Below the pieces are notes generated by a model that saw nothing but the letters and a program-made list of their open reading frames with translations, was not told where the DNA came from and searched no databases. Below are positions 7,016 to 59,567 of a stretch of DNA of 64,000 nt, in pieces. Each line of letters begins with the position of its first letter. Position 1 is the first letter of the stretch. The DNA is from Nonomuraea roseoviolacea subsp. carminata (lineage in GTDB: Bacteria > Actinomycetota > Actinomycetes > Streptosporangiales > Streptosporangiaceae). The DNA is taken from contig NZ_JAMZEC010000001.1 in NCBI RefSeq assembly GCF_024172185.1, positions 2,914,001 through 2,978,000 on the forward strand. Direction: 5' to 3'. Position numbers and translations under genes: made by a program.

Positions 7016-7096
7016 ATCGGCGAACGATCTCGACTATCGCAGCCGCGGCGGGCCGGCCGCCACCGCTTTATCCGGTACGTCTATCCGGAACGCGAA

Positions 7097-7126
7097 ACGC
7101 CCGACTCCGCGATGCGGGTCGGGCGT
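7097..7126 (-). terminator. Terminator hairpin downstream of tRNA-Thr
   Basis: ACGCCCGAC at 7097-7105 pairs with GTCGGGCGT at 7118-7126, and an inner CCGC/GCGG extends the stem. On the minus strand the hairpin is followed by TTCGCG after a GCGTTT edge. It lies 20 nt beyond the 3' end of tRNA-Thr and separates it from the next tRNA. Confidence 0.7.
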
Positions 7127-7145
7127 CATGCCTGTTCAGAGCGAG

Positions 7146-7218
7146 AGCCCCCAAACGGAATCGAACCGTTGACCTTCTCCTTACCATGGAGACGCTCTGC
7201 CGACTGAGCTATAGGGGC
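7146..7218 (-). tRNA. tRNA-Thr (anticodon GGT)
   Basis: A 73-nt cloverleaf. Acceptor GCCCCTA pairs with TGGGGGC (one T-G wobble), anticodon stem TCTCC/GGAGA with loop ATGGTAA, T arm AACGG TTCGATT CCGTT. CCA is not encoded. Anticodon GGT reads ACC and ACT. Confidence 0.95.
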
Positions 7219-7297
7219 CTGTCCGGCGCTGCGGACAGGTGTAACCATACACGGCCCTCAGCGATGATGCGAACTGGACGAGACCGCGCAGGTCGCG

Positions 7298-7501
7298 TCA
7301 GCCGACGGCCTCGAAGCCGCGCCGCGGCCGCAGGGTGACCACCTCGCACAGGTCGGCCAGATCGACGAGCGCGGCGACCTCCGCGACCGAGAAGCAGTCG
7401 GCGACGACCCGCCCGTCACGGCGCACCCGCAGCACCTGCCGGCCGTCGCGCAGCCCCGGAACGATCTCGAAACCGTCAGGCCCGACCCATCGACTGTCCA
7501 T
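7298..7501 (-). CDS. Small conserved hypothetical protein, 67 residues
   Basis: Sequence begins MDSRWVGPDGFEIVPGLRDG and continues with strand-like segments QVLRVRRDGRVVADCFSVAEVAALVDLADL. It looks like a small alpha/beta domain. I recall similar short proteins in many actinomycetes but know no function. No signal peptide or membrane segment. It sits between tRNA-Thr and the NlpC gene, on the same strand as both. Confidence 0.65.
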   Translation of the reverse strand: MDSRWVGPDGFEIVPGLRDGRQVLRVRRDGRVVADCFSVAEVAALVDLADLCEVVTLRPRRGFEAVG

Positions 7502-7571
7502 AGCGGCACAGATTAGCCCTCGGGTCTCTCATTTTCCGGAAGGCGACACGCGTCACACGCTACCGGGAGCG

Positions 7572-8099
7572 TCAGAGCCGGTAGAAGCCGGCGAAGTCCT
7601 TGAGCCGGGAGATCGGGTCCACCCGGACGAACGCCCCGGTCTCCGGCGCGTTGATCATCTTGCCGTCACCGAGATAGATCCCGACGTGGTGGGTGTCGAG
7701 GCCCTTCGCGGTGGTCCGGCCGAAGAAGACGAGGTCGCCGGGCAGCGCCGAGACGACCCGGCGCATCCTGCGCACCTGGTCGTTCGTGGTGCCCGGGCCG
7801 AGCACGTCCTGGCCGTGCGCCTGCGCGTACACCCAGCGGGACAGGCCCGAGCAGTCGAGCCCGCGCGTCCGCTCGGCCGGGCACGGCAGGATCCTCCCCC
7901 GGTAGCCGGCGCAGGTGCCCTTCGACGGCCCCGGGTCGCTGCCGTGCCCGCCGCCCCACGAGTACGCGATCCGCTGCCCCTCGATCCGCAGGGCGATCCG
8001 CACGATCTCGGGCTGCACGTACGGCATGAGCGGCACCGACGCGGTGGCGGTCACCAGCAGGAGCGCCGTCACCAGCGCGATCCGCCGCCTGATGGACAC
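7572..8099 (-). CDS. Secreted NlpC/P60 cell-wall peptidase
   Basis: 175 residues from a GTG at 8099 with GAGGGGAG upstream. A basic N-terminus and hydrophobic stretch (about 5-22) form a signal peptide or anchor. The NlpC/P60 core has the catalytic Cys in RGLDCSGLSRW (C83) and His in THHVGIYLGDGKMINAP (H138). Such enzymes cut gamma-D-glutamyl-diaminopimelate bonds in peptidoglycan stem peptides. An insert with extra cysteines (GTCAGYRGRILPC) precedes the catalytic Cys and could form a disulfide. Next to a GH25 lysozyme gene on the same strand, suggesting a shared role in wall turnover. Confidence 0.9.
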   Translation of the reverse strand: MSIRRRIALVTALLLVTATASVPLMPYVQPEIVRIALRIEGQRIAYSWGGGHGSDPGPSKGTCAGYRGRILPCPAERTRGLDCSGLSRWVYAQAHGQDVLGPGTTNDQVRRMRRVVSALPGDLVFFGRTTAKGLDTHHVGIYLGDGKMINAPETGAFVRVDPISRLKDFAGFYRL

Positions 8100-8155
8100 C
8101 CGGCGCTCCCCTCGGTAGGTCAGGGTCTCCTCTGTGGAGATCCTGCCTCATCACC

Positions 8156-9190
8156 TCACGAGGCGCTCAGGGTCAGCCGTACGGACCCGACCGTGAACCG
8201 CAGACCCACGGTGCCCTTGGCCCGGCGCGGCCTGGTGGTGAAGGACAGGGTGGTCTTCTGGCCGCGCCCCAGTTCGGCGATCTCGCAGCGCACCGCCGTG
8301 CCGCTGAACGAGCAGCCGGGCGCCGCCACCACGCGCTGCCCGCCGTACGCGCGGCCGGAGACCTTGATCTGCGTCACCGGGTGCGGCCCGGTGTTTGACA
8401 CCGTGACCGTGTAGCGGGTGCGGCTCCTGGCCTGGCCCGCCACGGTGATCTCGGCGGGCGGGTTGGCCAGCTCCTCCAGCTCGTCCTGGGTGCCGTTGAA
8501 GGTGTTCTGCCCTCCGGGCAGCGTGCCCTTCTCGGCCGACTGCCAGAACGTGTGGCGCTTCCAGCCCTTGGGCAGCTCGCCGGGGTCGGCTCCCCAGCGC
8601 GCCAGCCACAGCGGGTTGGCCTTGAACGCGGCGGAGTCGCCCGTGCAGGTGCGCCACCAGCTCGTGGTCGTGTAGATGACCGCCCGCCGGCCGGTCTCCT
8701 GCCGGTACCTGTCAGTGAACCCCTTGATCCAGCTCACCATGTCGGCGGGCGACAGGCCGTAGCAGGCGTTCTTGCCGTTGCGGTCCTTGTACGGGTTGTC
8801 CTCCAGGTCGAGCACGCCGGGCAGCGTCCAGCCGTCGGACTTCCAGGCGCCGCCGTTGAGCAGGAAGAACTCCGCCTGCGCCGCGCCGTCGGACTCGTGC
8901 GGCTGGGCGAAGTGGTACGCGCCGCGGACGAGCCCGGCCGCCAGGGCGCCGCCGTACTGCTCCTCGAAGCGCGGGTTGCGGTAGTCGACGCCCTCGGTCG
9001 CCTGGACGTAGGCGAACCTGCCGCCGCCGGAGGTCACCGCGCCCCAGTCGACCGCGCCGGTCCAGTTGCTGACGTCCACCCCGGCGATCGCACCGTCCGC
9101 CGCCGCGCCGGACCCGCCGGACACGGCCACGGCGGCGGCCGTCACGGCCGCGACGGCGGCCCCCCAGAGACGATTCACGGCGGTGATCAT
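8156..9190 (-). CDS. Secreted GH25 muramidase (lysozyme) with C-terminal beta domain
   Basis: 344 residues from the ATG at 9190. Signal peptide: hydrophobic segment ending at about AAADGAIAG. The GH25 domain starts with GVDVSNW, whose Asp is one catalytic acid, and includes the family signature LPGVLDLEDNP with the Asp/Glu pair, plus QATEG and GAYHFAQP. From about residue 235 a second domain of about 105 residues follows (ITVAGQARSRTRYTVTVSNTGPHP...), an Ig-like or NEW-type beta sandwich. GH25 enzymes hydrolyse the MurNAc-GlcNAc bond of peptidoglycan. An earlier ATG eight codons upstream lacks a better ribosome site. Confidence 0.92.
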   Translation of the reverse strand: MITAVNRLWGAAVAAVTAAAVAVSGGSGAAADGAIAGVDVSNWTGAVDWGAVTSGGGRFAYVQATEGVDYRNPRFEEQYGGALAAGLVRGAYHFAQPHESDGAAQAEFFLLNGGAWKSDGWTLPGVLDLEDNPYKDRNGKNACYGLSPADMVSWIKGFTDRYRQETGRRAVIYTTTSWWRTCTGDSAAFKANPLWLARWGADPGELPKGWKRHTFWQSAEKGTLPGGQNTFNGTQDELEELANPPAEITVAGQARSRTRYTVTVSNTGPHPVTQIKVSGRAYGGQRVVAAPGCSFSGTAVRCEIAELGRGQKTTLSFTTRPRRAKGTVGLRFTVGSVRLTLSAS

Positions 9191-9461
9191 CGCGGAGCCC
9201 TCACCTGGCCGCAAGCCGAATGAGTCGGCCGTTATCGAAGCGCTTTCTCCAAAAAATCGCCTTGTTTCCGAAAAGCGCAGCTCGGGGTCGGAAAAAAACC
9301 TCCGGCAGCCCTTTGCCGATGACGTCGTTTTCGCAGGTCAGCGCCGTATGTGAACACAACGTTCGCGTTTGCCCGGAAGGGATATGCGGTCGCAGGATGG
9401 CCTGGATTCCCAAGAACGACCCCGGCCGGGGTCTCCTCGCCATGCCCTGAGGAGCCACAGC

Positions 9462-10499
9462 ATGATCCACGCCCGGGCGCTGACCCGAGTGTTCACCGTC
9501 AAGAAGGAGACCGTCCACGCCGTACGCGGCATCGACCTCGACGTCGAGGCCGGCAGCCTCGTCGCCCTCCTCGGCCCCAACGGGGCCGGAAAGTCCACCA
9601 CGCTGCGCATGCTCACCACGCTGCTCCCGCCCAGCTCCGGCACCGCGACGGTCGCCGGCCACGACGTCGCCCGCGAGCCCGCCCGGGTGCGCGCCCGCAT
9701 CGGCTACGTCGGCCAGAAGAGCAGCGCCGGCGAGAACTTCCAGGTCCGCGACGAGCTCGTCAGCCAGGGCCGCTGCTACGGCATGACGACCGCGGCGGCG
9801 GCCGGGCGCGCCGACGAGCTGCTGGACCTGCTCGGCCTGCGCGCGCAGGCAAGCCGCAAGCCGGGCACGCTGTCGGGCGGCCAGCGCCGCCGCCTCGACA
9901 TCGCCCTCGGCCTCGTCCACCGGCCCGACCTGCTCTTCCTGGACGAGCCGTCCACCGGCCTCGACCCCAGGAGCCGCGCCGACATCTGGGAGCACATCAC
10001 GCGGCTGCGCGAGGTGTACGGCACGACCCTGTTCATGACCACGCACTACCTGGAGGAGGCCGACACCATGGCCGAGCGGGTGGTGATCGTGGACGGCGGC
10101 CGGATCATCGCCGACGGCACGGCCGGCCGGCTGAAGAACGAGCTGGCCGGCGACCACATCACGATCACCACCAGGACGGAGGCCGAGGCGGCGACGGCCG
10201 CCGCCGTGGCCCGCGCGACGACCGAGGCGCCGGCCCGAGTCACGAGGGAGGCGCCGGACGACGCGGCGACCGAGGCGCCGGCCCGCGTGACGACGGAGGC
10301 GCCGGACGGCGTCACCGTGGACGGGACGACCGTGCGGGTGCGGGTCGCCCGCGCCCCCGCCGCCCTGCCCGCCTACCTGCGCGCGCTTGAGGAGGCCGGC
10401 GTCAAGGCCGCCACCGCCGAGACCAGTCGCCCCACCCTCGACGACGTGTTCCTCACCCTCACCGGGAGAAGCCTCACCGATGACGACCTTCCTGCGTGA
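9462..10499 (+). CDS. ABC exporter ATP-binding protein, DrrA-like
   Basis: 345 residues from ATG 9462, which follows GAGGAG; the frame is open further upstream but without a ribosome site. Walker A is GPNGAGKST, signature LSGGQ, Walker B LLFLDEPSTGLDP and the H loop is in MTTHYLEEAD. The C-terminal region after the ATPase domain (from about residue 230) contains a 16-residue unit repeated twice (TEAPARVT..EAPD, 48-nt period at 10221-10316), then the DrrA-type C-terminal segment ending RPTLDDVFLTLTGR. Its stop lies 20 nt inside the permease gene. Together the two probably export a hydrophobic small molecule such as an antibiotic; the substrate is not known. Confidence 0.92.
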   Translation: MIHARALTRVFTVKKETVHAVRGIDLDVEAGSLVALLGPNGAGKSTTLRMLTTLLPPSSGTATVAGHDVAREPARVRARIGYVGQKSSAGENFQVRDELVSQGRCYGMTTAAAAGRADELLDLLGLRAQASRKPGTLSGGQRRRLDIALGLVHRPDLLFLDEPSTGLDPRSRADIWEHITRLREVYGTTLFMTTHYLEEADTMAERVVIVDGGRIIADGTAGRLKNELAGDHITITTRTEAEAATAAAVARATTEAPARVTREAPDDAATEAPARVTTEAPDGVTVDGTTVRVRVARAPAALPAYLRALEEAGVKAATAETSRPTLDDVFLTLTGRSLTDDDLPA

Positions 10500-12447: not shown

Positions 12448-13797
12448 TCAGTCACGCACCGCGGTCACCGTGGCGCCCGGAGGGACCTCCAGAGTCGTGG
12501 CGGAGCCGTCGGGGAAGGCGGCGGTCCACGTGTACGTCACCTGGCCCGACAGGTTGGTGAGCGTCGTGGACTCCCCGCCGTCGTGACGCACCGCGACGGT
12601 GCCCCGCCCGATCGGGATGCCGCTCACGGCGGCCCAGCCGATCTCCGCGGGCAGCCGCGAGAGCGTGGTCAGCGCGTTCGCCGGCGCGTCCGGCCGGACC
12701 CCGAGCAGGCCCGCCACGACCTGGCTGACCAGCGTGAACGAGACCTCCGGATAGTCGCCGTTGAGCCCGCCCGCCACGTGCCCGCCGGTGCGCGCGTGGA
12801 AGATCTCCCGCATCCACCGCCAGGCCGTCTCCGTCCGCCCGTGGCGGAAGAAGACGTCGGGCAGGTACGTCCACGCCTCGACGTTGGCGGGCCGGCCGGG
12901 GCCGCTCGCCTGCGCGTCCACGTAGTCGAGGTAGGCGGGGTCGTCGCGCAGGCCCTTCAACGGCATGAAGAAGCTGTTCTCGGCGCCCCAGCCGGTGACC
13001 GGCCGGCCGTCGAGGGTGAAGCCGCGGGCGCCCTTCCAGTCCTCCTCGTAGTGGCGGCGCAGCTCCGCGGCCCGCGCCTCGAACCGGTCACCGTCCTCGC
13101 CGCGCGCCCTGGCCAGCTCGGCCATGGCCAGGTGGGCGGCGTACTGCGTGGCCAGGCCGTCGCCGGCCACCGCCAGCGGCTCGCCGCCCAGCTCGTTGTA
13201 GCTGGCGACGCCCTCGAAGATGCTCGTCCCGCGCGCGGTGGCGGGCAGGGCGATCGCGTTCGCGCAGTAGTCGCGCAGCACGGGGTCGCGGACGTAGACG
13301 GGGTCCCCGGTCCAGCGATGGAGCTGCGCCACGCACTCCACCAGCTCGAAGACCGCCGGCACCTCACGGACGAAGTCGCCGGGCCCGCGGTAGTCGATCG
13401 ACAGGTACGAGCCGTCGAAGTTGAACGCCCACACCGGGCGACGGCCGTGCTCGGCGGTGGCCGACGCGGCGAAGCGGCGCAGCATCGTCAGGTTGGCCTC
13501 GGCCAGGCCGAGCAGGTGCGCGCCCGCCGCCTGGTGGACGAAGTCGCGCAGGTAGAAGCCGCTGCGGTGGGCGTACCCGGCCCAGTAGGACGGCAGATAG
13601 ACGCCCTCGCCGGTGCCCCGCGGGCGGTGTTCGTCGACGTTGACGGGACCGCGCGTCCCGCCGGGGTGGGCCCAGCGCAGCGCGCGGTCACGCGCCCACG
13701 AGAACATCTCCACGAGCTCGTCGTGGCCGGAGGCCACCATCAGATCATCGTGGCCGGAGGCCATCGTCAGATCGTCGTGGCCGGAGTCACAGTGCAT
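12448..13797 (-). CDS. Putative glycosidase with six-hairpin (alpha/alpha) barrel
   Basis: 449 residues, cytosolic, with no signal peptide. Features of helical-barrel glycoside hydrolases include GVYLPSYWAGYAHRSGFYLRD, WAFNFDGSYLS, FDG/DYRGPGDFVREVPA, GWGAENSFFMPLKG and HVAGGLNGDYPEVSF, followed by a small C-terminal beta domain. The GH family was not assigned. The start overlaps the lacI stop by 11 nt, making it the last gene of the sugar operon. The N-terminus consists of three 9-residue repeats (SGHDDL-type), so the ancestral start may be the later EMFSWARDRAL region. It probably trims the imported oligosaccharide. Confidence 0.75.
   Translation of the reverse strand: MHCDSGHDDLTMASGHDDLMVASGHDELVEMFSWARDRALRWAHPGGTRGPVNVDEHRPRGTGEGVYLPSYWAGYAHRSGFYLRDFVHQAAGAHLLGLAEANLTMLRRFAASATAEHGRRPVWAFNFDGSYLSIDYRGPGDFVREVPAVFELVECVAQLHRWTGDPVYVRDPVLRDYCANAIALPATARGTSIFEGVASYNELGGEPLAVAGDGLATQYAAHLAMAELARARGEDGDRFEARAAELRRHYEEDWKGARGFTLDGRPVTGWGAENSFFMPLKGLRDDPAYLDYVDAQASGPGRPANVEAWTYLPDVFFRHGRTETAWRWMREIFHARTGGHVAGGLNGDYPEVSFTLVSQVVAGLLGVRPDAPANALTTLSRLPAEIGWAAVSGIPIGRGTVAVRHDGGESTTLTNLSGQVTYTWTAAFPDGSATTLEVPPGATVTAVRD
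13717..13797. repeat. 27-bp tandem repeat, three copies
   Basis: The unit beginning GTGGCCGGA recurs at 13723, 13750 and 13777, an exact 27-bp period. On the minus strand it encodes the first 27 residues of the glycosidase as three SGHD(D/E)L units. It spans the overlap with the end of lacI, so expansion also moved the start of one gene relative to the end of the other. Confidence 0.85.
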
Positions 13798-38319: not shown

Positions 38320-38787
38320 TCAGGCGATCGACAGGCCCTCCTTGAGGGCCGCGGCGATCCCCTTCTTGTCGTAACCGGCGGTGGGCAGGGTGGACCCGTG
38401 GGCGTGACGGACGACGCCCGCGGAGTCGACGAGGACGCTGCCGGACTGCTGGAGCGCGCCGAAGACCTTCCTGCCCAGGCCGATCATCTCGTGCGGCGTG
38501 CCCTGGCGGCCGACGAGCACGGGGAACGGGAGCCCGCGCCTGGCCTTCCACGCGGCCGCCTCCGCACGGTCCTCGGGCACCGCGACCAGCACCTGGACGC
38601 CGGCGTCCGCGAACTCGTCGCGGCGCCGGACGAGGTCCTTGACGTGCAGGTTGCAGACCGGGCACGACGTCGAGCGCATGAAGTAGATCAGTACGGCGCT
38701 CCTGCCCCGGTAGTCGGACAGGCGGACGGTGTGGCCGTCGGTGTCCTGCAGCACCACGTCGGGCGCGGTCGATCCAGTTTCGAGCAT
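38320..38787 (-). CDS. AhpC/TSA-type peroxiredoxin-like protein
   Basis: 155 residues. Thioredoxin-fold redoxin with TGSTAPDVVLQDTDGHTVRL and the active-site region YFMRSTSCPVCNLHVKDL, where a CxxC pair replaces the single peroxidatic Cys plus neighbours. It is cytosolic, with no signal peptide. It lies about 50 nt downstream of the ECF sigma gene on the same strand and is likely co-expressed, which suggests an oxidative-stress response unit. Confidence 0.85.
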   Translation of the reverse strand: MLETGSTAPDVVLQDTDGHTVRLSDYRGRSAVLIYFMRSTSCPVCNLHVKDLVRRRDEFADAGVQVLVAVPEDRAEAAAWKARRGLPFPVLVGRQGTPHEMIGLGRKVFGALQQSGSVLVDSAGVVRHAHGSTLPTAGYDKKGIAAALKEGLSIA

Positions 38788-53049: not shown

Positions 53050-53412
53050 ATGGATCAAGCCACTCCAGCCGGCGTCGACCAGCCCGCTCCCGACGGGGCC
53101 ACAGGCAACGCCGAAGACCGGTTCGACGATGACGACTATCCCGCCTACAGCATGGGGGCGGCCGCGGAGATGCTCGGCGTCACCGCGGCGTTCCTGCGCG
53201 CTCTGGGCGCCGCCAAGCTGATCGAACCTCGACGCTCCAGCGGCGGCCACCGCCGCTACTCCCGCTACCAGCTACGCCTTGCCGCCAGAGCCCGTGAGCT
53301 CGTCGACCAGGGCACACCCGTCGAAGCCGCCTGTCGGATCATCATCCTGGAAGACCAGCTCGCCGAGGCGCTGCGCATCAACGAGGCTCGCGCCCGCCAG
53401 GCGGGACCCTGA
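53050..53412 (+). CDS. MerR-family regulator, 120 residues
   Basis: Starts at ATG 53050 with AAGGGG upstream. An acidic N-terminus is followed by a MerR helix-turn-helix (AYSMGAAAEMLGVTAAFLRA, LIEPRRSSGGHRRYSRYQLR) and a short dimerisation helix (VEAACRIIILEDQLAEALRI). No effector-binding domain or metal-binding cysteines. I recall this short MerR type as common in actinomycetes, often behind a long leader. Confidence 0.88.
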   Translation: MDQATPAGVDQPAPDGATGNAEDRFDDDDYPAYSMGAAAEMLGVTAAFLRALGAAKLIEPRRSSGGHRRYSRYQLRLAARARELVDQGTPVEAACRIIILEDQLAEALRINEARARQAGP

Positions 53413-53530: not shown

Positions 53531-56254
53531 ATGCTGATCCGGTTACTGGGGCCGGTGGAGGCCGAGCGCGCGGGACAGGCATGGCCGGTGCGCCCGCCCC
53601 AGGTCGCGCTCACGCTCGCCGCGCTGGCGTGGGAGGCCGGACGGGTGGTGCCGGTCGAGTCGCTGCTCGCCCGCGTGTGGGGTGAGGCCGCCCCGCCGGG
53701 CGCGCGGCGCACCCTCCAGACGGTGATCGCCCGGATCCGGCGGGACGTGCTGGCCGAGAGCGGCACCGTCGTCCAGCGGGTCGGCGGCTATCTGCTCGAC
53801 GTGGACGAGTCCGCCGTGGACGTGCGCCGCTTCCGCGTCCTCGCCGAACAGGCCACGAGCGTGCCGGATCCCGCGGCGCCGCTGGGCGAGGCACTGGCGC
53901 TGTGGCGCGGCGACCCCCTGACCGGGCTGTCCGGCGAGTGGGCCGAGCGGGTCCGCCAGCGCCTGTGTGACGAACGCAAGGATGCCCTGCTGCGCTGGGC
54001 GCGGGCGATGACCGGCCGCGACGCCGCCGCCGTGGTGCGGGCGCTGGCGCCGCTGGCCGAGCAGTACCCGCTGGACGAGCTGGTGGCGGCGGCGCTGATC
54101 GAGGCGCTGCACGCGTGCGGGCGCACCGCCGAGGCACTGGCACACTTCGCGCACGTACGCCGGACGCTCGACGAGGAACTGGGCGTCGAGCCCGGCGCGT
54201 CCCTCCAGCAGACGCACCGGACGTTGCTGCGCTCCGGCGCCCCGCCCGAGCCCGCCGGCTTGGTCCCGGCGCAGCTGCCGGTCGGGCTGAGGTGCTTCGT
54301 CGGCAGGGCCGCCGAGTTCGACCGGCTGGCCGTGATCGCCTGCGGTGAGCGACCGGTCACCGCGACCGTCTGCGCCATCTCGGGACCGCCCGGGGTGGGC
54401 AAGTCGTCGCTCGCGCTGCGCTGGGCGCACCTGAACCGCGACCGCTTCCCCGACGGGCAGCTCTACGCCGATCTCAGCGGCGTGGACGCCGACGACGCGT
54501 CCGTGGTGCTGCCGCGCTTCCTCAGCGCGCTGGGAGTGCCGGAGGCGCGGGTGCCGTCCGGGTCGGAAGCGCAGATCGGGCTCTATCGCAGCCTGATGGC
54601 CGGTCGGCGGGTTCTCGTGGTGCTCGACGACGCGAGAGGGGCCGCCCAGGTCCGCCCGTTGCTGGCCACCGCGCCGGGATGCCTGACGCTGGTGACCAGT
54701 CGTGCCGAGCTGTCCGGGCTGGCGGTCACGGCCGGCGCGCACCTGCTGCGCCTGGACGTCCTGCCGGACGACGACGCGTACCACCTGCTGGTGACGTGGC
54801 TGGGTGAGGCGCGACCGGCGGCGGAACCGGAGGCGGCGGCGCTGATCATCCGGCGCTGCGGGCGGCTGCCGCTGGCGCTGGCGATCGTCGCGGCCCGGCT
54901 GGCGCAACGCCCTGAGCTGCCGCTGGCCGAGGCCGCCGCGGACCTGGAGCGGGCCGCGGCGGGCCTGGAACCGTTCGCCGACGACGACCCTGCGGTCGAC
55001 CTGCGTGGTGTGTTCGGGCGCTCCTACCGCGACCTGCCCGCCGCCGCGGCCGGGCTGTTCCGCCGCCTCGGGCTGCACCCCGGGCCGCACCTGCCGCTGG
55101 CGGCGGCGGCGAGCCTGGCCGCCCTGCCCGTGGCCCGCGCCCGAGAGCTGGCCGTGCACCTCGACCGCGCCAACCTGGCCGAACTCCGCCCGCCCGCCCG
55201 CCTGCACCTGCACGACCTGCTCCGGGTGTACGCGGCCGAGCAGGGGCGCGTCGCCGGCGGCCGGGCGGCCCGGAGCGCGGCGACCCTTCGGCTGCTGGAC
55301 TACTACCTGCACTCGGCGTGCGCCGCCAACTCCGTGTGCTACCCGCACCGCGACGACCTGCGTCCGGAGCCCCCCGCCCGGGGGGTCGCGGTCGAGCGGT
55401 TCGCCGGGGAGGCCGAGGCCCTGCGCTGGTACGCCGACGAGGTCGTGGCGCTGCCCGCGCTGCTGGCCGAGGCGGGCGCGGCCGGGCTGGACCGGCAGGC
55501 GTGGCAGCTCGCGTGGGCGTTCACGGAGTTCATGCAGCGGCGTGGCATGTGGGAGGAGATCCTGCGGGTCCAGGCGGTGGCGCTCGACGCCGCCCGGCGG
55601 CTCGGCGACCGGCTGGCCGAGGCCCGCTGCCACAACAGCGCCGCCCGCGCCCACTACCGGCTCGGCCGGCACCGCGAGGCGGTCGAGCACTTCGAGCAGG
55701 CCGCCGCGAGGCACCGCGACCTCGACGAACCGGTGCTGCACGGGCACGTCCTCCTGGGCCTGTGCGTCGCGCTGAGCCGGACGGACCCCGGCGAGGCGCT
55801 GGAGCGGGCGCTGCGCGCGCTGGCACTGTTCCGGAGCGCGGGCGACGCCGTCGGCGAGGCGCGGGCGCTCAACAACTCGGGCTGGCTGCGGGCCGAGGGC
55901 GGCGCGTACGACGAGGCGCTGGCCGACTGCCGCCGCGCACAGCGGCTCCTGGCCGACCTCGGGTACGCCCAGGGCGAGGGGCACGCGTGGGACAGCGTCG
56001 CCCACGTCCTGTGCCTCAAGGGCGACCACGAGGGGGCGGTGGCGGCTTTCGAGCGGGCGGCGGAGCTGCTGCGCGGCTGCGACGACCGGCACGCCGCCGC
56101 CGAGACGCTGGTCCGTCTGGGTGAGACGCATCTGGGGGCGGGCGACGTCGCCGCCGCGCTCGACGCCTGGAAGCAGGCGGCGGACTGCTACGACGCCGTC
56201 GGCGACGCGCGGGCGGCCGCCGTCCGGGACCGCATCGCCGTCGCGGGCGGCTGA
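53531..56254 (+). CDS. AfsR-like SARP/NB-ARC/TPR regulator
   Basis: 907 residues from the ATG at 53531 (GGAGAGG upstream). Residues about 1-95 are the winged-helix DNA-binding domain (MLIRLLGPVEAERAG, LQTVIARIRRDVLAESGTVV), 96-240 the bacterial transcriptional activator domain (ALALWRGDPLTGLSGEWAER, LDEELGVEPGASLQQTHRTL), about 260-560 an NB-ARC ATPase with Walker A SGPPGVGKSS (about 285-293) and Walker B VLVVLDDARGAAQ. The rest is TPR repeats (ARAHYRLGRHREAVEHFEQA, LNNSGWLRAEGGAYDEALAD). Such proteins integrate a signal and activate nearby promoters. It lies directly upstream of the Cys-rich peptide operon on the same strand, so it is probably that operon's activator. Confidence 0.92.
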   Translation: MLIRLLGPVEAERAGQAWPVRPPQVALTLAALAWEAGRVVPVESLLARVWGEAAPPGARRTLQTVIARIRRDVLAESGTVVQRVGGYLLDVDESAVDVRRFRVLAEQATSVPDPAAPLGEALALWRGDPLTGLSGEWAERVRQRLCDERKDALLRWARAMTGRDAAAVVRALAPLAEQYPLDELVAAALIEALHACGRTAEALAHFAHVRRTLDEELGVEPGASLQQTHRTLLRSGAPPEPAGLVPAQLPVGLRCFVGRAAEFDRLAVIACGERPVTATVCAISGPPGVGKSSLALRWAHLNRDRFPDGQLYADLSGVDADDASVVLPRFLSALGVPEARVPSGSEAQIGLYRSLMAGRRVLVVLDDARGAAQVRPLLATAPGCLTLVTSRAELSGLAVTAGAHLLRLDVLPDDDAYHLLVTWLGEARPAAEPEAAALIIRRCGRLPLALAIVAARLAQRPELPLAEAAADLERAAAGLEPFADDDPAVDLRGVFGRSYRDLPAAAAGLFRRLGLHPGPHLPLAAAASLAALPVARARELAVHLDRANLAELRPPARLHLHDLLRVYAAEQGRVAGGRAARSAATLRLLDYYLHSACAANSVCYPHRDDLRPEPPARGVAVERFAGEAEALRWYADEVVALPALLAEAGAAGLDRQAWQLAWAFTEFMQRRGMWEEILRVQAVALDAARRLGDRLAEARCHNSAARAHYRLGRHREAVEHFEQAAARHRDLDEPVLHGHVLLGLCVALSRTDPGEALERALRALALFRSAGDAVGEARALNNSGWLRAEGGAYDEALADCRRAQRLLADLGYAQGEGHAWDSVAHVLCLKGDHEGAVAAFERAAELLRGCDDRHAAAETLVRLGETHLGAGDVAAALDAWKQAADCYDAVGDARAAAVRDRIAVAGG

Positions 56255-56280
56255 CGGAGCGGCGCGCGCGGACGGGCCGT

Positions 56281-56320
56281 TCGCATTTCGTTGACAAATC
56301 GCCCAGCCCTTTGGTCCAGG
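56281..56320 (+). promoter_or_regulatory. Probable promoter of the Cys-rich peptide operon
   Basis: A consensus -35 element TTGACA at 56291-56296 stands in the 103-nt gap before the peptide gene. The -10 is weak; GTCCAG (17-nt spacing) or CAGGCT (20-nt spacing) are candidates. Two TTCG-containing heptads (TTCGCAT, TTCGTTG) overlap the -35, as expected for promoters that depend on a SARP activator. Confidence 0.5.
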
Positions 56321-56357
56321 CTGCCACGAGCGCCGGAACTAACGAAGGGAAGGTTCG

Positions 56358-56540
56358 ATGCGCGTTGTGACCAGGATGGCCGACCGGATTCTCGAACTGA
56401 TGGCGCCGCACACGGTGGCCCGCGCCGCCGACTGCGGCTGGGAGTGCTGCGGCCCGATCAACGCCGGGAGGTACTGCTGCTACTACCCGAGCGGCAGGCG
56501 CTCCTGCGGCTCCTGCCAGACGTACATCTACTGCTCGTGA
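56358..56540 (+). CDS. Cys-rich secreted-peptide precursor, 60 residues
   Basis: Starts at ATG 56358 with AAGGGAAGG upstream. Residues 1-23 (MRVVTRMADRILELMAPHTV, then ARA) form an amphipathic, moderately basic leader without a long hydrophobic core. The C-terminal part has eight cysteines at 26, 30, 31, 40, 41, 50, 53 and 59, with aromatic and Gly residues between them (CGWECCG, GRYCCYY, SCGSCQTYIYC). An even Cys number suggests four disulfides. A small-residue stretch ARAAD at 21-25 is a likely cleavage site. Followed by thioredoxin-like, ABC and signal-peptidase genes. Its activity is unknown; similarity to any characterised peptide family was not recognised. Confidence 0.8.
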   Translation: MRVVTRMADRILELMAPHTVARAADCGWECCGPINAGRYCCYYPSGRRSCGSCQTYIYCS

Positions 56541-56647
56541 TCGGCGCGGGCGCATCGCCCGGCCCAGCGAGATGAGCGCGCGCCCGGCGAGCGGGTCCCG
56601 CCCGCCGGGCGCGCGCCGCCGTAGCCCCGCCGACATGGAGGTGTCTT

Positions 56648-57202
56648 GTGTCCTATCTGATCGCCGTGGTGGCCCTCCTCTGCGCCCTGTGCCTGGTGCT
56701 GCTGCTGGTGACCCTCGGGCTGGTCCGGCGGATCCGGGAGCACACCAAGCTGCTGGACGCCCTGTACGAGCAGGTCGACCTCATGGGCCCGCTCCCGGCG
56801 GGCGCCGGCCCCGCCGTCGGCGACGTCGTCGCCGAGTTCGCCGCGACCACCGTGGACGGAGCCCCGGTGACCCGCGACCTCCTGCCCGACGGGACGGTCG
56901 TGGCGTTCCTGTCGCCGGACTGCGCGGGCTGCCACGAGCAGCTTCCCGAGCTGGCCTCCTGGGCGGCCGAGCAGGACAGGGAGCGGGTGCTGGCAGTGGT
57001 CGACGGCCGGTCCGGCGACCCCGGGAGCCTCGTGGCGACGCTGACGCCGGTGGCCCAGGTGGTCGTGGACGACGCGGCGGCGCCGGTCGGCTCGGCGTTC
57101 GGGGTGCGGTCGTACCCGACCTTCTTCCAGGTGGCGACCGGCGGGAGGCTGCTCGCCGTGGCGCCCCGGATCTCCCGGCTGCCCGCCGGATCGGCCGCGT
57201 GA
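56648..57202 (+). CDS. Membrane-anchored thioredoxin-like protein (MauD/TlpA-like)
   Basis: 184 residues from GTG 56648. One membrane span (about 3-26), then a thioredoxin fold with active site SPDCAGCHEQLPEL (C92 and C95) and cis-proline region RSYPTFFQV (P157). The domain should face the outside of the membrane. The arrangement resembles MauD, which helps form disulfides in methylamine dehydrogenase small subunits. Expected job here: forming or shuffling disulfides in the Cys-rich peptide. No MauE-type membrane electron-transfer partner is encoded in the operon. The stop overlaps the ABC gene start as GTGA. Confidence 0.87.
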   Translation: MSYLIAVVALLCALCLVLLLVTLGLVRRIREHTKLLDALYEQVDLMGPLPAGAGPAVGDVVAEFAATTVDGAPVTRDLLPDGTVVAFLSPDCAGCHEQLPELASWAAEQDRERVLAVVDGRSGDPGSLVATLTPVAQVVVDDAAAPVGSAFGVRSYPTFFQVATGGRLLAVAPRISRLPAGSAA

Positions 57203-59124
57203 GCGAGCGCGAGCCGATCAGCCGCGTGAGCGAGCGTGAGCCGCGGGTCACGGCGGCGGCCCTGGCACGCTGTGCCACCCGGGCCGCCGCGCTGGTGTGG
57301 CGGTCGGCGCCGCTCCACGTCCTCGGTTACCTGGCGGTCACGGTCGTCGGCGCCGCCGTCCCGGTCACCGTGGCCTGGCTGACCAAGGCCGTGCTGGACG
57401 GGGTGGCGCACCGGCAGACCGGGGCCTTGCTCGCCCCGGCGATCGCCATCGCCGTGGCCGGGACGGCCGCGGCGGCGGCCACACACGCCGGGCAGTACCT
57501 GCGCGCCGAGGTGGACCGGCGCGCGGCGCTCGACGCGAAGGACGAGCTGTTCGCGGCGGTGTCCCGCTTCACGGGGCTGGACAGGTTCGAGACCCCGGCC
57601 TTCCTCGACCGGCTGCGGCTGGCCCAGCAGAGCGCGAGCAACCCGGGCCGGCTGGTGGACACCGCGCTCTCGGCCGCGCGCAGCGCGGTGACCGTCACCG
57701 GCTTCGTCGCCTCTCTGGCTCTGGTCAACACCGCGTTCACCGCGCTGGTCCTGCTGTCGGCCCTACCCGCGCTGCTCATCGAGCTGCGGCTGTCGCGGCA
57801 ACGGGCCGCGATGTTGTGGCGGATCGGGCCGGCCGAGCGCCGCGAGTTCTTCTACGCCCGGCTGATGTCCACGGTGGACGCCGCCAAGGAGATCCGCCTG
57901 TTCGACCTCGGCGCCTTCCTGCGGCTGCGCATGCTGACCGAGCTGCGCACCGCGAACGCCGCCCGCCGCCGCATGGACCGGCGGGAGCTCCTCGTCCAGG
58001 GCGGCCTGGCGGGGGCCTCGGCCGTCGTCGCCGGCGCCGGACTGGTGTGGGCGATCACGGCGGCCGGGCAGGGACGGCTCGGCGTCGGCGACGTGTCGAT
58101 GTTCGCGGCGGCGCTGGCCGGCGTGCAGGCGGCGCTGAGCGGCCTGGTGGGGTCCGGGGTGATGGCGTACGAGCACCTGCTGACCTTCCACCACCACGTC
58201 GAGATCGTGGACGCCGCCCCGGAGCCGTCCCACCGCCCCGCCTCGTTGGCTCCGCTGCGGCGGGGCATCGAACTCCGTGACGTCTGGTTCCGCTACGGCC
58301 CCGACCATCCCTGGATCCTGCGCGGCGTCGACCTGTTCATCCCGTACGGGGAGACCGTCGCGCTGGTCGGCCGCAACGGCGCCGGCAAGAGCACGCTGGT
58401 GAAGCTGCTGTGCCGGTTCTACGACCCCACCCGCGGCACCATCCTGTGGGACGGCACCGACCTGCGCGACGTGCCGCCGGAGGCGCTGCGCGCCCGGATC
58501 GGCGCGACCTTCCAGGACTTCGTGTCGTACGAGCTGACGGCCACCGACAACATCGCGGTGGGCGACCTCCCCGCCGCGGCCGACCGGACGCGCATCGAGC
58601 GGGCGGCGCGGGACGCCGGCGTCCACGACACCCTGACGGCCCTGCCCCACGGCTACCGCACCCTGCTGAGCCGCGGATTTCCGCTGGAGGAGGAGGGCGA
58701 GGACGAGGAGGGCCCGGACTCCGGTGCGTCGCTCTCCGGTGCGTCGCTCTCCGGCGTGTCGCTCTCCGGCGGGCAGTGGCAGCGGCTGGCGCTCGCCCGG
58801 GCGTTCCTGCGCCGCGACCGGGACCTGATGATCCTCGACGAGCCCAGCTCCGGCCTGGACCCCGAGGCCGAGCACGAGGTGCACCGGCGCCTCGCCGAGC
58901 TGCGGTCCGGGCGCACCAGTGTCGTCGTCTCCCACCGGCTCGGCGCGGTCCGGGACGCCGGGCGCATCGTGGTGCTGGCCGACGGTGTCGTCATCGAGAC
59001 GGGCACGCACGCGGGGCTGCTGGCCGCGGGCGGCACGTACGCGCGGCTGTTCGACCGGCAGGCGGCCGGGTACCGGGACGACGCGGAACCCGCGACGGCC
59101 GAGGCGACAGGACCGTCGCGGTGA
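57199..59124 (+). CDS. ABC exporter with fused permease and ATPase domains
   Basis: 641 residues from GTG 57199, overlapping the previous stop by 4 nt. About six membrane spans (1-310) then the ATPase domain: Walker A VGRNGAGKST (about 391-398), Q loop ATFQDF, signature LSGGQ (522-526), Walker B LMILDEPSSGLDP, H loop VVSHRLG. No C39 peptidase domain at the N-terminus, so processing must be done by another enzyme. Two duplications: SEREP at the start (27-bp repeat; a GTG at 57226 could be the true start) and a 15-bp triplication (SGASL units) placed immediately before LSGGQ. Likely exports the Cys-rich peptide. Confidence 0.9.
   Translation: MSEREPISRVSEREPRVTAAALARCATRAAALVWRSAPLHVLGYLAVTVVGAAVPVTVAWLTKAVLDGVAHRQTGALLAPAIAIAVAGTAAAAATHAGQYLRAEVDRRAALDAKDELFAAVSRFTGLDRFETPAFLDRLRLAQQSASNPGRLVDTALSAARSAVTVTGFVASLALVNTAFTALVLLSALPALLIELRLSRQRAAMLWRIGPAERREFFYARLMSTVDAAKEIRLFDLGAFLRLRMLTELRTANAARRRMDRRELLVQGGLAGASAVVAGAGLVWAITAAGQGRLGVGDVSMFAAALAGVQAALSGLVGSGVMAYEHLLTFHHHVEIVDAAPEPSHRPASLAPLRRGIELRDVWFRYGPDHPWILRGVDLFIPYGETVALVGRNGAGKSTLVKLLCRFYDPTRGTILWDGTDLRDVPPEALRARIGATFQDFVSYELTATDNIAVGDLPAAADRTRIERAARDAGVHDTLTALPHGYRTLLSRGFPLEEEGEDEEGPDSGASLSGASLSGVSLSGGQWQRLALARAFLRRDRDLMILDEPSSGLDPEAEHEVHRRLAELRSGRTSVVVSHRLGAVRDAGRIVVLADGVVIETGTHAGLLAAGGTYARLFDRQAAGYRDDAEPATAEATGPSR
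58720..58770. repeat. 15-bp tandem repeat next to the ABC signature motif
   Basis: The unit TCCGGTGCGTCGCTC starts at 58720, 58735 and 58750. It encodes SGASL, SGASL, SGVSL and then the genuine SLSGGQ. The repeat appears to have arisen by duplication of the signature codons themselves. Confidence 0.85.
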
Positions 59125-59567
59125 GCGGGGCGGTGGCTCTCGTCGCCGGCCCCGGCCTCCTCGTGGCGTTTGTCGCCGTGATCGTCGGGGTGCGGCGGCG
59201 GTACCTGGTGGTGACCGTCCACGGCGAGAGCATGCTGCCGACGTACCGGCCGGGAGAGCGGGTGCTGGTCCGGCGGGCGCGGGCCGGCTCGCTGCGGACC
59301 GGGCAGGTCGTCGTCCTCAGGGAGCTCGTTCCCGACGGTCAGGCCGAGCCGAGGCCCCACTGGATCGTCAAGCGCGTCACCGCCCTGCCGGGCGACCCCG
59401 TCCCGCGCGACACCGTCCCCGCCCTGCGGGCCGCGGCCGGCACCCGGGTCCCGGCCGGCCACCTGGTCGTCCTGGGCGACAACCCTGACCGTTCGCACGA
59501 CTCCCGCCACTCCGGCTATCTGACGACGGACCGCCTGTACGGGGTGGTCCTTCGCCGGCTCGGCTAG
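59121..59567 (+). CDS. S26-family signal peptidase
   Basis: 148 residues from GTG 59121, overlapping the ABC gene stop by 4 nt (GTGA). An N-terminal membrane span (about 4-24) precedes the catalytic Ser in VTVHGESMLPTYRPGE (S37) and the catalytic Lys in HWIVKRVTALPGD (K84); the family box GDNPDRSHDSR is present. It is shorter than housekeeping LepB and belongs to the small S26 type. It probably cuts the leader from the Cys-rich peptide during or after export. The stop overlaps the convergent TPR gene stop as CTAG. Confidence 0.9.
   Translation: MSGAVALVAGPGLLVAFVAVIVGVRRRYLVVTVHGESMLPTYRPGERVLVRRARAGSLRTGQVVVLRELVPDGQAEPRPHWIVKRVTALPGDPVPRDTVPALRAAAGTRVPAGHLVVLGDNPDRSHDSRHSGYLTTDRLYGVVLRRLG

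Follow-up and report, generated by a model that had tools for sequence, protein, structure and literature searches.

A stretch of 64,000 nucleotides from Nonomuraea roseoviolacea subsp. carminata (C1:2914001-2978000 of a 9.75-Mb genome; hereafter the window) carries at 53531-59567 a five-gene cassette, which is very probably a self-contained factory that makes, disulfide-folds, exports and trims a small secreted cysteine-rich peptide. The cassette encodes a SARP/NB-ARC/TPR regulator, a 60-residue precursor, a MauD-like thioredoxin-fold protein, an ABC exporter and an S26 signal peptidase (Table 1). These genes belong together, as seen in their order and conservation, the split of the precursor into leader and core, the even cysteine numbers, the protein fold and the catalytic residues. 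The coordinates and gene contents given in the original prediction match our re-examination, and its reading of the locus as one that makes, folds, exports and matures a disulfide-rich peptide gains support, at the level of sequence, from the gene association and from cysteines that are both invariant and even in number.

In the mechanism that we infer, in which the MauD-like protein would be the oxidase, the S26 protein would remove the leader and the ABC protein would export the peptide, the SARP/NB-ARC/TPR protein would bind a triple 11-bp repeat and activate the precursor gene together with the operon that follows. The amphipathic leader of the precursor would be recognised by the ABC exporter, and at the membrane the anchored MauD-like thioredoxin, together in most relatives with its membrane redox partner, MauE, would pair the cysteines (four disulfides here). 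The S26 peptidase would then cut after A-x-A at residues 21-23, which would yield a mature peptide of 37 residues. Disulfides as the core modification are suggested by the even cysteine numbers together with the MauD/MauE neighbours.

The precursor gene and its neighbours across genomes

The 60-residue, eight-cysteine open reading frame (ORF) is, on the comparisons made here, a true gene, since a paralogous five-gene cassette exists and searches with the precursor alone reach the same neighbour genes. The paralogue lies at C1:4246396 of the source genome, with its five genes in identical order, and its precursor, with 56% identity to that of the window, retains all eight cysteines. The eight cysteines to which the original prediction drew attention are invariant in 14/14 sequences of the subfamily alignment (the window, the paralogue and 12 from other records). 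Among named records, the closest precursors belong to Nonomuraea species, Microtetraspora malaysiensis and Sphaerimonospora mesophila, the nearest being that of N. montanisoli (family Streptosporangiaceae; 93% identity).

The initial searches for relatives used precursor sequences as the only query. Among 200 genomes of the family, a two-row precursor profile matched 17, one of them the source genome. A 27-row profile matched 24 genomes among 394 from the class (source included; G320 and G386 are false), and a phylum-level search matched 3 of 296: the source, G216, which is a true relative, and again the false G320. The 62 loci examined consist of the window, the paralogue and 60 from the relative searches (20 + 40), with the hit genome G123 not among them; L115 and L116 are false hits with none of the cassette genes, which are inside the counts of 62 and outside the 74 precursors and 60 MauE loci discussed below. 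Within 6 kb of the best precursor, the MauD-like gene was found in 58 loci, the ABC gene in 56, the S26 gene in 58 and the SARP gene in 41. The trio of MauD, ABC and S26 genes is present within this distance in 54/62 loci, being incomplete in L034, L043, L092, L103, L112, L115, L116 and L126. L034 is a third cassette of the source genome (C1:6135000-6153000, site 6143957), with precursor, MauD, S26 and SARP genes and no ABC match; an ABC exporter is present in L036 and L044, which have the same core type. The L043 precursor (9875-10060) lies near a SARP gene with no MauD, S26 or strong ABC match within 19 kb, in a genome with other full cassettes, and may be processed in trans.

The reverse test used a MauD profile of eight sequences, all from genomes other than the source. 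It gave six strong matches in the source genome (E 4e-30 or better), each adjoining one of six precursor sites, and two further weak matches (E 4e-6 and 1e-4) away from such sites. The match at E 4e-6 is a 155-residue redoxin-like ORF with a CPVC motif in the window (38320-38787, minus strand), which resembles an ordinary peroxiredoxin-type protein. In a search of 54 genomes of the genus at E 0.001, raw precursor matches were found in 47, at up to seven places per genome. Of these 143 precursor places, at least 124 lie no more than 5 kb from a MauD place (at least 118 of 137 without the source genome), and among the MauD matches listed, 113/150 have a precursor match within 5 kb; the genus profile, A7, contains one sequence from the genus (L127, G069). 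The link between precursor and MauD is strong and imperfect, with some precursors standing alone and some MauD genes lacking a precursor visible to the profile. Conservation of the short ORF beside the same genes, which had been proposed as a check on the original prediction, is thus borne out by the loci and the genus alike. No phage link emerged when viral contigs were scanned with the MauD-like protein, as none of the 72 pattern matches was a relative.

The 74 distinct precursors have a common leader with the motif DR...P...AxA, followed by a variable core. The leader is cysteine-free in 73 of them, and alanine occupies position -3 of the leader end in 70, a position at which the pattern admitted A, V or G. 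In the window subfamily, the ratio of nonsynonymous to synonymous substitution rates (dN/dS) is 0.24 for the leader versus 1.01 for the core (1.28 without the invariant cysteines), both being simple counting estimates summed over pairs, of which the core value is rough because of core indels. A conserved leader joined to a variable core in a short precursor is the arrangement that marks a ribosomally synthesised and post-translationally modified peptide (RiPP). Because the core changes fast, an outward-acting role such as competition is suggested; with moderate confidence we place its action outside the cell and regard competitors as the most likely target. The best 11-residue Kyte-Doolittle mean within the first 26 residues has a median of 0.96 (range 0.32-2.25) over the 74 precursors; export of the precursor by Sec was considered and set aside, the leader being amphipathic and not strongly hydrophobic.

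The number of cysteines is four in one precursor, six in 44, seven in 2, eight in 26 and nine in one. It is even in 71/74 precursors and in 43 of 46 clusters at 60% identity (p = 2e-10 versus one half). Control ORFs with 6-9 cysteines from the same loci, mostly non-genes, have an even number in 122/200; relative to this rate, the 42 even counts among 45 clusters with 6-9 cysteines give p = 9e-7, and the unclustered 70/73 gives a Fisher p = 7e-10. Since the number is even in 71/74 precursors despite 53 spacing patterns, the cysteine pattern of the family is not random, and even numbers are as expected if the cysteines are paired. The conserved eight-cysteine spacing that was also proposed as a check holds within the window's own subfamily and does not extend to the wider family, with its 53 patterns. 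Two weak precursors stand outside the 74 (L090 5189-5353, seven cysteines; L120 3427-3588, six cysteines), and with both included the even count is 72/76. The former, weaker-scoring, shares its locus with a second seven-cysteine precursor (9092-9253), and it is conceivable, as a guess, that the two are bonded between chains. At L042, seven different precursors with varied cores accompany one set of machinery, six in tandem upstream (7078-9072) and one downstream (12791-12964).

No NCBIfam model matched any of 27 precursor members at E 0.1, the Pfam matches were few, scattered and weak, the best of them reaching E 0.0016 in a single member, and no PDB chain matched the precursor profile up to E 1. 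A fold model of the core with three strands (predicted local distance difference test score, pLDDT, 64.7) matched no PDB structure at a threshold of E 0.001 and was not used.

Table 1. Features of the cassette, in window coordinates
Feature	Position	Strand	Basis or remark
SARP (OmpR-type DNA-binding + BTAD)/NB-ARC/TPR regulator, AfsR-like	53531..56254	+	ATG at 53531; Pfam
Putative SARP operator, heptamers CGTTCGC, CGTTGAC, CGCCCAG at 11-bp period	56278..56306	+	Alignment of relatives
Possible -10 element CAGGCT	56317..56322	+	10 nt past third heptamer
Ribosome-binding site GGAAGG	56348..56353	+	Sequence reading; purine run also in six-locus alignment
Precursor gene	56358-56540	+	60 residues; 8 Cys between residues 26 and 59
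Leader, residues 1-23, Cys-free	56358..56426	+	ADRILELMAPHTVARA, A-x-A end; alignments, dN/dS 0.24
Core peptide, residues 24-60, eight Cys	56427..56540	+	Cys 14/14 invariant; core dN/dS 1.01
GC-rich hairpin between precursor and mauD-like gene	56576..56616	+	RNA fold z -2.54
MauD-like membrane-anchored thioredoxin-fold protein	56648..57202	+	CAGC at residues 92-95
ABC exporter, membrane and ATPase parts fused	57199..59124	+	Pfam ABC_tran 5.8e-29
S26 (type I) signal peptidase	59121..59567	+	Ser37/Lys84; TIGR02227

Redox proteins, exporter and signal peptidase

The structure model of the MauD-like protein (pLDDT 86.7) consists of a helix at residues 2-45 followed by a thioredoxin fold, with PDB fold matches to Etrx2, ResA, CcmG, SdbA and TlpA. 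This fold group contains both reductases and oxidases, so the redox direction of the MauD-like protein is not readable from the fold. The first cysteine of the CxxC motif is present in 58/58 relatives and the second in 56/58. The two exceptions are L106 (7809-9697) and L114 (8112-10035), where the precursor stands between two MauD-like genes, one without the second CxxC cysteine and the other with CPSC. Because the window protein scores 28.6 bits against TIGR02661 (methylamine dehydrogenase accessory protein), under the equivalog cut-off of 188.6, it is on this score MauD-like only.

The one other gene broadly shared within 7 kb of the precursor is MauE (42 other loci), which the original prediction does not mention, the next gene families occurring in 11 loci or fewer among the 23 families listed. 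Its identity is given by Pfam PF07291, which the L113 copy matches at E 1e-21. MauE lies within 7 kb in 50/60 loci, two of which are weak or partial (L089, E 1.6e-5; L094, E 3.9e-7), and C-x-C is present in 44/44 aligned copies. Seven of 11 named close relatives have it, six in divergent orientation upstream of the SARP gene and one (L135) beside the precursor. In the window, a MerR/HspR-like regulator gene (53050-53412) lies immediately upstream of the SARP gene, the place that the divergent MauE occupies in those six relatives. The window cassette has probably lost its MauE. Elsewhere in the source genome there are two close MauE copies; ten places reach E 0.01 against the Pfam MauE model, and six of the ten exceed its cut-off. 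At three of the MauE places (L151, L152 and L153), a SARP match was found in L151 and an ABC match in L153, with no MauD, S26 or significant precursor match at any of the three; help in trans from such a MauE is possible but unsupported.

The MauD-like, ABC and S26 genes are coupled by GTGA overlaps at 57199-57202 and 59121-59124. The ABC protein matches MsbA-type and peptide-exporter models of NCBIfam, all under cut-off among the best 25 listed, and has no Pfam hit for a C39 peptidase, the domain expected of a class II bacteriocin exporter. A 15-bp tandem repeat (58719-58769, 3.4 copies) extends this protein just ahead of its LSGGQ signature and is absent at that place in six relatives compared. 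At the start of the ABC gene, a 27-bp direct duplication (57189-57243, 2.0 copies, 92% match) creates two possible GTG starts. The S26 protein is a type I signal peptidase by TIGR02227 (E 5.4e-21; 75.1 bits versus a cut-off of 47), and its Ser37 and Lys84 are conserved in 58/58 relatives. With an S26 gene in 58/62 loci, an intact Ser/Lys pair and A-x-A at the leader end, this protein is a putative leader peptidase.

Several points weigh against the cassette being an oxidative peptide factory. The peptide product is a prediction from the genes, and no immunity gene was identified. Among the matches listed, 19/143 genus precursor places have no MauD within 5 kb, and 37/150 MauD places have no precursor match within 5 kb. 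The cysteine number is odd in 3/74 precursors; that of the seven-cysteine L091 is odd because one cysteine sits in the leader, and the other two are the seven-cysteine precursor of L090 and the nine-cysteine one of L089. The remaining points concern the redox step. Thioredoxins of the MauD-like fold include reductases (ResA, CcmG) beside oxidases, no MauE lies within 7 kb of the window copy or in nine other loci of the 60, and the net charge of the 12 residues after the MauD helix is positive in 57/58 copies, so that by the positive-inside rule a catalytic domain outside the cell is not favoured.

The same features could mean that the MauD-like protein is a reductase or isomerase, which would keep the precursor reduced for export or reshuffle wrong bonds, with disulfides formed by general DsbA/VKOR enzymes or by air. 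The fold matches to ResA and CcmG beside SdbA, the window copy without MauE and the positive charges after the membrane helix all fit this role. However, MauE lies near the precursor in 50/60 loci, and the available text of the decRiPPter study (PMC7794033) relates a speculation that MauE introduces the disulfides of methylamine dehydrogenase. We regard a reductase or isomerase role as rather unlikely.

Regulation and the nature of the product

The regulator has Pfam matches to BTAD (4.1e-23), NB-ARC (7.4e-10) and TPR_12 (1.5e-22). Its putative operator finds a best match of 22-28 of 29 consensus positions in 17/17 close-relative upstream regions, at least 3 of which repeat a genome already counted, and every one of the 17 has CAGGCT, CAGTCT or CACGCT at a constant offset. 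The TTGACA hexamer, presented in the original prediction as a promoter element, is indeed found before the peptide gene. It lies at 56291-56296, inside the triple repeat, where the relatives' rows read TTGAGA (13/17), TTGACA (2) or CTGAGA (2), and appears to be part of an 11-bp triple repeat resembling a SARP operator and not a plain -35 box; it is better read in this way. By published description, a SARP site consists of direct repeats spaced by 11 or 22 bp, of which the 3' one lies 8 bp away from the -10 element (PMC10936776, available text), and the main PimR operator has three heptamers with 4-bp spacers (PMC5930380, available text). Since the offset of CAGGCT is 10 nt, close to the SARP rule of 8 bp and not exact, its assignment as a -10 element stays putative. 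Stems like the hairpin downstream of the precursor are also found in L005, L037 and L038 (z -3.37, -3.39 and -1.88); this is a possible attenuator or mRNA-stability element, which perhaps keeps the precursor mRNA more abundant.

In another reading, the secreted peptide is a signal and not a weapon, sensed by the TPR part of the SARP protein or by another receptor, so that the cassette would regulate itself. The SARP gene near the precursor in 41/62 loci and the operator-like repeats ahead of the precursor are in keeping with this. However, the core, with a dN/dS of about 1, varies freely, and some loci have several different precursors (seven in L042), which is unusual for a single receptor. 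A signalling function is improbable, and a peptide acting outward, most likely on competitors, is preferred.

Alternatively, modifications that escape notice, such as thioethers or other cross-links, could be the main point, with the disulfides secondary. RiPP families often use unannotated enzymes. No lanthipeptide (Lan) or lasso enzyme was found among the Pfam hits of the six genes scanned or among the NCBIfam hits listed. MauE remains the only broadly shared extra gene within 7 kb among the 23 families, which weighs against this explanation, and we consider it quite doubtful. That the core is a metal binder, metallothionein- or metallophore-like and not locked by disulfides, is very unlikely, for although many cores have CC and CxxC motifs and the control ORFs also lean even (122/200 at 6-9 cysteines), an even number in 71/74 precursors over 53 spacings fits pairing better and thiol-redox genes adjoin the precursor.

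Relation to known systems

The related cassettes, with fast-changing cores and often several per genome, suggest that this family of natural peptides is large and has hardly been studied. It is possible, and we propose it tentatively, that they form a general bacterial line in which one leader carries almost any even-cysteine core through MauD/MauE, ABC and S26 proteins, and of which many genomes keep several with rapidly changing cores, i.e., a counterpart of cone-snail-toxin and defensin repertoires and a class of natural products that experiments have yet to characterise. If so, one actinomycete genus would hold a large reserve of small stable peptides, unrecognised by the Pfam and NCBIfam models tested, for which the leader motif with the MauE/MauD/S26 neighbourhood is a simple search rule. 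A leader serving 53 cysteine spacings could also aid bacterial production of designed disulfide-rich peptides, and MauD and MauE would acquire a function beyond methylamine metabolism that can be tested.

The closest precedent is computational. The decRiPPter study of 2020 predicted three candidate families in Streptomyces with mauE, one also with mauD, and precursors of at least 8 cysteines (PMC7794033). According to the available text of that report, these families resemble the cassette in placing MauE/MauD beside a predicted precursor with at least eight cysteines and in the proposal of a RiPP modification; the leader motif, the S26 role, the cysteine parity, the operator and the range outside Streptomyces go beyond its available text. 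The window has eight cysteines and MauD and lacks a nearby MauE, yet MauE is present in 50/60 loci. Compared by description only, the decRiPPter families are likely identical with the present family. No other report of clusters combining MauE/MauD with a cysteine-rich peptide was found, in a literature mostly of papers available without subscription; the label "undescribed" in the original prediction stands to that extent and is slightly too strong, because decRiPPter had already flagged MauE/MauD clusters.

Pediocin-type leaders end in the double-glycine manner. The window leader ends in TVARAADC with no glycine pair, a statement for the window only, as the pattern used for the other precursors is unable to place glycine at -1. 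Pediocin PA-1 is like the cassette in combining a cysteine-containing peptide with a putative thiol-disulfide oxidoreductase, PedC, which raises potency (PMC4919988, available text), and with an ABC transporter in the same operon (PMC9148482, available text). In contrast, the cassette has no C39 hit, an A-x-A leader end, a stand-alone S26 peptidase, MauD/MauE in place of PedC, a cluster SARP gene and many unrelated cores. TMcin likewise comes from a RiPP cluster with an oxidoreductase, TmcD, needed for the proper disulfide, a protease and an ABC transporter, whereas that system, in the available account, is staphylococcal and has a transmembrane-helix precursor, one disulfide, an S2P-clan protease and a DsbA-type enzyme (PMC13252029).

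The LPP RiPPs share with the cassette the removal of a RiPP leader by a signal peptidase I homologue (SipW-like), a kind of peptidase that the authors call previously undescribed in RiPP pathways (PMC13381572). They differ in belonging to Bacillota, in depending on a RiPP recognition element (RRE), in the archaeal type of the peptidase and in their polyphosphorylated product, and the word "disulfide" is absent from the available text (PMC13381572). Actifensins are also actinobacterial cysteine-rich peptides with divergent cores, with up to seven copies per operon, whereas they have the six-cysteine motif C-x5-12-C-x3-C-x9-10-C-x4-5-C-x-C and genes for a subtilisin-like protease, LuxR and ABC proteins; MauD, MauE, S26 and SARP are unmentioned for the actifensin operon in the available part of that paper (PMC6989792). 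The window peptide, with its eight cysteines, has a spacing unlike the six-cysteine defensin motif.

The window SARP protein is like the AfsR/SARP regulators in its domain order of SARP, NOD and TPR and in its putative operator of direct repeats at 11-bp period ahead of a poor candidate -10 element (PMC10936776, available text), whereas it is cluster-situated and scores 404.6 bits, far under the NCBIfam AfsR cut-off of 1430. From these comparisons, the cassette may be classed with the RiPP or bacteriocin-like systems that depend on disulfides, as one that has a leader, a protease and a redox pair of its own.

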